Positions 5,587 through 5,983 of a DNA stretch of 64,000 nt are shown piece after piece. Source of the stretch: Halobacteria archaeon AArc-dxtr1 (GTDB lineage: Archaea; Halobacteriota; Halobacteria; Halobacteriales; Natrialbaceae); the NCBI GenBank assembly GCA_025517425.1, contig JAOPJY010000002.1, forward strand, positions 186,001 through 250,000, given 5' to 3'. Position 1 is the first letter of the stretch, and each line of letters opens with the position of its first letter. The notes under the pieces were generated by a model. The model was not told the origin of the DNA and did no database searches. It was given only the letters and a program-made list of their open reading frames with translations. The translations under genes and the position numbers were made by a program.

Positions 5587-5658
5587 GGGCTCGTAGATCA
5601 GTGGTAGATCGCTTCCTTCGCAAGGAAGAGGCCCTGGGTTCAAATCCCAGCGAGTCCA
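5587..5658 (+). tRNA. tRNA-Ala (anticodon CGC)
   Basis: A 72-nt cloverleaf. The 7-bp acceptor stem GGGCTCG/CGAGTCC contains the G3-U70 wobble pair that specifies alanine. The D-stem is GATC/GATC, the anticodon stem CTTCC/GGAAG with loop TTCGCAA, the variable loop 5 nt, and the T-stem CTGGG/CCCAG with loop TTCAAAT. The discriminator is A and no CCA is encoded. There is no intron. It reads GCG codons. The 3' end is partly duplicated downstream. Confidence 0.95.
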
Positions 5659-5983
5659 CTTCTTCACATCGCTACGCTCGTTCAGTCGTGGACTCGCTGC
5701 ACATCGCAAACTCTACGAGTTTGCTCAATCCCAGCGAGTCTATAATTCTGCGGCGCGAACAACTTCGTGAGCGCCGCAAATAATCGTCGAGTCGGGATTT
5801 GAAGCCCTGTGAAACGTAGTTCGAAAGACGCCCTTGGCGTCTCTCGTCATCACGAGAGAGCAACGCTCTCTCGAACGACAGCGCCGAGCGGTGCGCAGTT
5901 CGGAACAAAAGTGCAACGCAAGGGTGCATGCGCTGCAGCACGGGGATAACCTTACCCCAGAAAGCGGTGTACGGCGAGTCGGT
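5659..5983. other. Palindrome-rich tail downstream of tRNA-Ala
   Basis: 325 bases without a credible gene. A degenerate direct copy of the tRNA 3' end (TCAATCCCAGCGAGTC, 5725-5740) and an inverted copy (GACTCGCTG, 5691-5699) are present. There are at least four perfect short inverted repeats: 5706-5713/5717-5724, 5750-5756/5771-5777, 5826-5832/5836-5842 and 5853-5861/5865-5873, three of them with 3-nt loops. An antisense T-arm-like fragment lies at 5788-5808. This resembles the scar of a tRNA-targeted integration event, but no integrase remains. Confidence 0.5.
5725..5740 (+). repeat. Partial direct repeat of tRNA-Ala 3' end (possible att remnant)
   Basis: TCAATCCCAGCGAGTC repeats the tRNA T-loop/acceptor segment (5640-5656, TCAAATCCCAGCGAGTC) with one base missing. 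Tyrosine integrases that use tRNA genes leave such copies. The intervening 68 bases hold no integrase. Confidence 0.45.

Follow-up and report, generated by a model that had tools for sequence, protein, structure and literature searches.

In integrons, attC sites are imperfect palindromes that fold on one strand and present a double-stranded recombination site. Other short structured elements follow a different plan: the right end of IS605 carries a guide before a hairpin and a cleavage site after it, REPs are located between many kinds of genes, and the t-elements of Haloferax volcanii are tRNA-shaped processing signals. Among the mobile elements of haloarchaea, the available portion of a Haloquadratum study lists PATEs, MITEs and SMRs, describes SMR-A elements of about 110 bp that insert into palindromes, and gives PATEs and SMRs as moving without target duplication (PMC3119063). 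For archaeal tyrosine integrases, the T-loop region is named as a known crossover area in the part of the source available to us (PMC8371274).

The window analysed here is a stretch of 64,000 nucleotides from Halobacteria archaeon AArc-dxtr1, in which a tRNA-Ala(CGC) gene is followed by two members of a family of gene-less cassettes, 80–150 nt in length, that stand downstream of many tRNA genes. In type B, a first hairpin (H1) is separated by about ten bases from I, an inverted copy of the T-arm of the cassette's own tRNA; the hairpin unit H2 follows, and the cassette closes with D, which repeats the tRNA directly from its T-loop to its 3' end. In type A, exemplified in the window at 5659-5742, the inverted copy derives from the acceptor end instead. 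Type B was represented by a covariance model, R1, derived from 17 cassettes in the genome of the window and one in genome G014, and type A by a model termed R2. The tail of the window's tRNA gene comprises the following features:

5587..5658, plus strand: tRNA-Ala(CGC), the anchor gene (ARAGORN; Rfam RF00005, 71.3 bits).
5659..5742, plus strand: cassette A, complete (R2 match G000:C2:191659-191742, 1.8e-20, R2 containing this cassette among its own sequences).
5659..5687, plus strand: spacer of cassette A; an inverted version is present in G009 (L174).
5688..5699, minus strand: I of cassette A, an inverted copy of the acceptor end of the tRNA, 12/12 complementary to 5648-5659.
5706..5724, no strand assigned: inner hairpin of cassette A, 8 bp with a 3-nt loop; in relatives the letters differ and the pairing is preserved.
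5727..5742, plus strand: D, which terminates cassette A and directly repeats the 3' end of the tRNA, 14/14 at 5727-5740.
5743..5880 (end approximate), plus strand: cassette B, damaged (R1 match G000:C2:191747-191839, 9.5e-4).
5749..5778, no strand assigned: H1 of cassette B, 8 bp with a 14-nt loop and G.A/G.A in the stem beside the loop, the H1 motif.
5794..5806, minus strand: I of cassette B, an antisense T-arm, 92% of 13 positions complementary to 5636-5648.
5815..5879 (start approximate), no strand assigned: dispersed double-hairpin repeat occupying the H2 position, with similar sequences at G000:C1:1250287, G000:C2:378271 and in plasmid records.

The source of both the direct and the inverted copies is the last 20-22 nt of tRNA-Ala(CGC). 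The direct copy, AATCCCAGCGAGTC, stands at 5643-5656 within the gene and again at 5727-5740, and cassette A is also present after tRNA-Ala(CGC) in relatives. Cassette B has retained H1 and I, D is absent, and H2 has been replaced or overgrown by another repeat, whose hairpins lie at about 5827-5841 (GACGCC-CTT-GGCGTC, with a 3-nt loop) and at 5853-5873 (9 bp, 3-nt loop). When 5659-5880 was shuffled 2000 times with its dinucleotides preserved, the direct match to the end of the tRNA (14 observed, shuffle maximum 11), the inverted match within the tail (11 against 10) and the hairpin count (4 against 2) were each reached in 0/2000. A sequence-only reading of this DNA had already pointed to the direct copy, to four hairpins of which three have 3-nt loops, and to an antisense T-arm-like fragment, all of which were recovered here; the inverted copy that it described proved longer than it had stated, and its judgement that there is more structure than a simple att duplication would explain was correct. 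The repeat in the H2 position has the form GTTCGARAGAC...CGTCATCACGAGA...TCTCGAACGA and also occurs away from tRNA genes and on Natrialbaceae plasmids; copies were located at G000:C1:1250287-1250343 (L004), at G000:C2:378271-378308 (L006) and on plasmid NZ_CP119798.1 at 112887-112961.

The same layout was found behind other tRNA genes, both in the window's own genome and across the class. Of the 41 tRNAs that the tRNA model gives in this genome, 21 are followed by D in a simple string test, and type A also occurs after Arg-CCT. R1 returned 26 matches, namely 25 cassettes behind 22 tRNA genes and one antisense echo, a result that holds partly by construction because R1 was built mostly from cassettes of this genome. 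Across the class, R1 matched 190/194 Halobacteria genomes, the exceptions being G104, G107, G137 and G069, and R2 matched 139/194; calibration of both models was short, and in searches of more than 40 genomes 19 (R1) or 23 (R2) candidates were scored per genome, so that each per-genome count is a minimum and an apparent absence may be false. In a sample of the phylum, R1 matched 31/33 Halobacteria and 0/163 other genomes, with 145 non-matching genomes assigned outside the class from the kinship order of the listing. Since genomes outside the class also have tRNAs, tRNA likeness alone does not produce R1 matches. Within the sampled genomes, the cassettes are thus confined to Halobacteria, and there is strong support for the earlier suggestion that they are palindromic repeats forming a distinct family associated with tRNAs.

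Placement is equally regular. The cassettes lie directly downstream of tRNA genes in a single orientation, and a tRNA stands just upstream in 55/55 R1 loci, either directly or via tandem copies. Among 30 fetched R2 loci, the tRNA upstream (Ala-CGC, Ala-GGC or Pro-GGG) is intact in 24, and the other six lie behind copies of a tRNA 3' end. Presence is patchy among close relatives, and some genomes have few cassettes or none.

The arms of each cassette match the tRNA at which it resides. This was assessed on 139 R1 matches from 100 chosen loci, with duplicates left out. For eight of them ARAGORN gave no tRNA on the correct strand (L193 and L219 twice each; L216, L197, L207 and L162 once each): L162 is an antisense echo, L216, L193 and L219 have the 3' part of a tRNA just upstream, and L197 and L207 do not clearly have one. 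In 69/131 cassettes D was identical to the final 20 nt of the local tRNA and in 119/131 it agreed at 16 or more of the 20 positions, as against just 8/131 when D was paired with a different tRNA. Identity was at least 0.80 at every one of the last 22 positions and collapsed to 0.19 at the 23rd from the 3' end, which gives D an abrupt boundary within the T-arm; D also carries a recurrent one-base insertion. In 104 cassettes, after those without a clear I or D had been dropped, mismatches to the tRNA numbered 24/1248 positions in D and 208/1248 in I; I thus decays, and D is preserved or renewed. The core of cassette A, ATCGCAAAC...GTTTGCTCAATC, is identical behind Ala and Pro tRNAs, and the arms around it vary with the tRNA. 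Compensatory pairing between I and D was considered as the main force and was unsupported once gaps had been handled: I is not kept complementary when D changes.

In addition, the cassettes at a given tRNA gene differ in number and order and are missing in some relatives. Among 99 tRNA loci, 75 had one R1 match, 16 had two and eight had three, which places tandem cassettes at 24/99. Behind Ala-CGC alone, A precedes B in G000 and G018 and follows it in G002, G033 and G042, B adjoins the tRNA directly in G008, and A and B are both cleanly absent in G001 and G003. Moreover, H2 is exchanged without H1. In a comparison of 118 cassettes, from which those without a clear I or D had been dropped, 87 pairs at different tRNAs had an H2 likeness above 0.85, and their mean H1 likeness of 0.47 equalled the background; one 38-nt H2 is identical between Val-TAC of G109 and Val-GAC of G033. 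Within one genus, the Gly-TCC cassettes of G000 and G003 have the same H1 and different H2, and at Arg-CCT the H2 is nearly the same in G000 and G003 and another in G001. The nearest neighbour of H1 in another genome stood at the same tRNA in 38/118 cases, against 5.6 expected, which suggests that H1 is to some extent inherited with its tRNA. Two segments flanked by a direct and an inverted copy, the A spacer of G009 (L174) and the H1 of L207, were judged by eye to be inverted; in all cassettes read, the orientation of H2 was uniform, and free inversion at I and D was not seen.

Other repeats also occupy such tails. At L053, the tail of tRNA-Gly(CCC) near G000:C2 23698, the final 10 nt of this tRNA, GGACGGCGCA, recur in tandem with a 20-nt period, and no cassette is present. 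Other hairpin pairs of about 45-100 nt split copies of the T-arm or D at L293 and L302 (Tyr), L041 and L042 (Ala) and L106 (Arg-GCG).

The reading that we prefer, and to which we give an even chance, is that the tail is a short tRNA-anchored array of gene-less cassettes, which DNA recombination between copies of the T-loop and 3' end adds, removes, duplicates, reorders and mixes. The crossover would lie in or beside the T-loop (TTCRAAT), because the H2 breakpoints between relatives fall there and D copies the tRNA from that point to its end. The 3' side of the target would become D, and the incoming copy would rebuild a working tRNA at every insertion; D would therefore have to stay near perfect and I would be free to decay. 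Recombination at the T-loop would account both for hairpin units that have moved and for arms that are renewed from the local tRNA. As a first guess, the putative enzyme would be a tyrosine recombinase encoded by the chromosome or by a resident element. Against the preferred reading, neither an enzyme nor a circle or free cassette came to light, and four patterns searched against viral contigs gave 0 matches; the partial inheritance of H1 and the uniform orientation of H2 also count against it. With blastn, the window tail gave tRNA matches alone among the 20 of 54 phage records listed, and tRNA matches together with the 5815-5879 repeat among the 20 of 35 plasmid records listed; one composite cassette query against plasmids gave no match. 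Carriage by viruses or plasmids was set aside, as the viral-pattern, phage and plasmid searches yielded no cassette among the matches listed.

Covariation and predicted folding bear on the form that the substrate might take. Across 18 cassettes, both-sided changes were found at 7/7 pairs of the H1 stem and at 8/12 pairs of the I-D stem, and the true register scored 0.48, against 0.07-0.12 for slid versions, a score reached by 0/500 shuffles. Since both arms are copies of tRNAs, part of the covariation between I and D is to be expected; the same does not hold for H1. On the tRNA-sense strand, I-H2-D is predicted to form a single long hairpin that contains GNA loops and tandem G.A pairs, and this strand was the more stable in 110/130 cassettes with RNA parameters and in 96/130 with DNA parameters. 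Of at least 240 internal loops of the 2x2 kind in the predicted folds, 206 are GA/GA; the commonest terminal loop is GAA (56), and GTA, GGA and GCA come next among the triloops; the H1 motif has GA/GA in 88/93. GC-closed GNA loops form unusually stable DNA minihairpins, and GNRA loops are the expectation for RNA. As modelled, the GNA loops lean to single-stranded DNA, and the G.A pairs would fit RNA equally. Because of the strand preference and the loop type, the substrate of recombination might be a folded single strand, whose I-H2-D hairpin would present a double-stranded recombination site in the manner of integron attC; this step is more tentative than the crossover at the T-loop.

The same folds would also be compatible with a structured RNA, the best surviving of the alternatives and nevertheless an unlikely one. 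Here the cassettes would be co-transcribed as the 3' trailer of the tRNA, H1 and I-H2-D would serve tRNA maturation, termination or regulation, and the turnover of the DNA would be a by-product. The sense-strand fold preferred with RNA parameters, the both-sided changes at every H1 pair and the strict position downstream of tRNA genes all agree with such a role, and against a model restricted to DNA, the H1 covariation suits RNA as much as folded DNA. An RNA function is harder to reconcile with patchiness among close relatives, with genomes that have few cassettes or none, with an I that loses its complementarity upon changes in D, and with GNA triloops in place of GNRA loops. In the Rfam search of the window, the tRNA alone reached the gathering score, and the cassettes match no curated RNA family.

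Recombination between T-loop copies might also proceed without any dedicated enzyme or function. We consider it doubtful that the cassettes are passive repeats produced by template switching during replication together with gene conversion, even though direct repeats of 14-22 nt would give tandem copies and clean losses, and the T-loop common to the arms suffices for microhomology. The decay of I and the arrival of other hairpin repeats in the same tails likewise suit a passive process, and gene conversion over short homology could yield the same mosaics as an enzyme. Against this, a defined unit with a conserved H1 motif and conserved H2 feet in 190/194 genomes, together with the sharp edge of D, shows more regularity than chance rearrangement would be expected to give.

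Integrase elements at the same tRNA genes raise the question whether the copies are leftover attachment sites. Such an element is inserted at tRNA-Ala(CGC) in a relative, G005; it is 8.2 kb long and carries a Phage_integrase gene (PF00589, 1.8e-9; phrog_1) with homologues in 179/194 genomes. Cassettes A and B of G005 lie beyond the right core of this element, and in 10/30 integrase loci read by eye (L283-L286, L289, L291, L293, L295, L308 and L312) a cassette of either type stands directly outside the right core. The elements therefore enter between tRNA and cassettes, and it follows that the cassettes are not their att sites or remnants. In addition, the integrase cores comprise whole T-arms or longer and exceed D, which begins within the T-arm, and at most integrase loci read no inverted copy precedes the core. 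In place of a tRNA 3' repeat flanking an integrase-bearing element, the tails hold gene-less units of 80-150 nt outside the elements. That the copies are remnants of elements once integrated at this tRNA is accordingly very unlikely, and the decayed integration target proposed by the sequence-only reading did not hold up. From their sequences, a distant link between cassettes and integrase elements may be conceived, because in G005 the core is preceded by a GNA hairpin and by a stretch that weakly resembles I, and the Tyr-targeting elements L293 and L302 have a double hairpin within the T-arm. The 8.2-kb element of G005 also encodes, at L168:3733-4185, a protein with a homing-endonuclease-associated HNH repeat (PF18780). 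In the window's genome, integrase genes of the G005 type lie at G000:C3:179-1171 and G000:C3:270841-271842, near both ends of contig C3, which may be an element or a plasmid cut at those ends.

That the cassettes are PATE-like elements mobilised in trans by IS200/IS605 Y1 transposases is the least probable reading of all and very nearly dismissed: with a guide-like I preceding a hairpin and a cleavage-like TTCAA following it, the cassettes resemble the right end of IS605, and the palindromes are compatible with single-strand folding, but Y1_Tnp occurs in 132/194 genomes, is lacking from the window's genome with its 25 type B cassettes and is present in all four genomes without an R1 match, a distribution on which a Y1 transposase was rejected as the mover, and furthermore the arms are tRNA-specific and D duplicates 20-22 nt, whereas PATEs are given without target duplication in the available part of the source (PMC3119063).

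The preferred reading, a tRNA-anchored cassette array shaped by recombination, shares most with integrons and their CALIN form: head-to-tail units, a fixed entry site, an imperfect palindrome on one strand with a variable tip, and changes of order. Tandem units that each end in an imperfect palindrome, here the I-D stem, are present at 24/99 loci. Unlike integron cassettes, those described here have no cargo gene, their entry site is a tRNA gene and their arms copy that tRNA; the phage-type integrase found belongs to the inserted elements. It is possible, although we regard it as improbable, that they form an integron-like system without cargo, in which tRNA genes would be the entry sites, a recombinase would act on single-stranded I-H2-D folded on the sense strand, with its G.A pairs and GNA loops, and cross over at the T-loop, each insertion would restore the 3' end of the tRNA, the arms would be re-made from the host tRNA, and cassettes would pass between tRNAs and between species throughout the class.

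Other known kinds agree with the cassettes in part. PATEs, MITEs and SMRs are likewise short, non-coding, palindromic and mobile and occur in the same class of organisms, but they are dispersed, not bound to tRNA genes and without copies of host genes; MITEs have terminal inverted repeats in common with a transposon, and the inverted repeats of the cassettes, I and D, derive from the host tRNA. The att sites of archaeal tyrosine integrases (SNJ2, pNOB8 and others) also involve a direct repeat of the 3' part of a tRNA, but have no inverted copy and no hairpins between the repeats, and D is shorter than the cores read. REP and REPIN sequences share paired hairpins and many copies, whereas the cassettes lie at tRNA genes only. 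The t-elements are tRNA-like pieces in a haloarchaeon, whereas D is not tRNA-shaped and pairs with I. In open-access PubMed Central full texts, the scope of the literature search, no description of tRNA-tail cassettes was found, and they are unnamed in the available parts of PMC8371274, PMC3119063, PMC7714728, PMC4983044, PMC12558985 and PMC2841640. Each known kind compared misses, or may miss, at least one defining feature.

A structure at many tRNA genes in almost all sampled genomes of the class, missing from Rfam and from the literature found, points to an unfamiliar DNA-processing activity or to an unfamiliar RNA role at tRNA genes. The cassettes would help to account for the variable neighbourhoods of tRNA genes in Halobacteria, and they would show how elements can carry host-gene copies and have them renewed wherever they insert.
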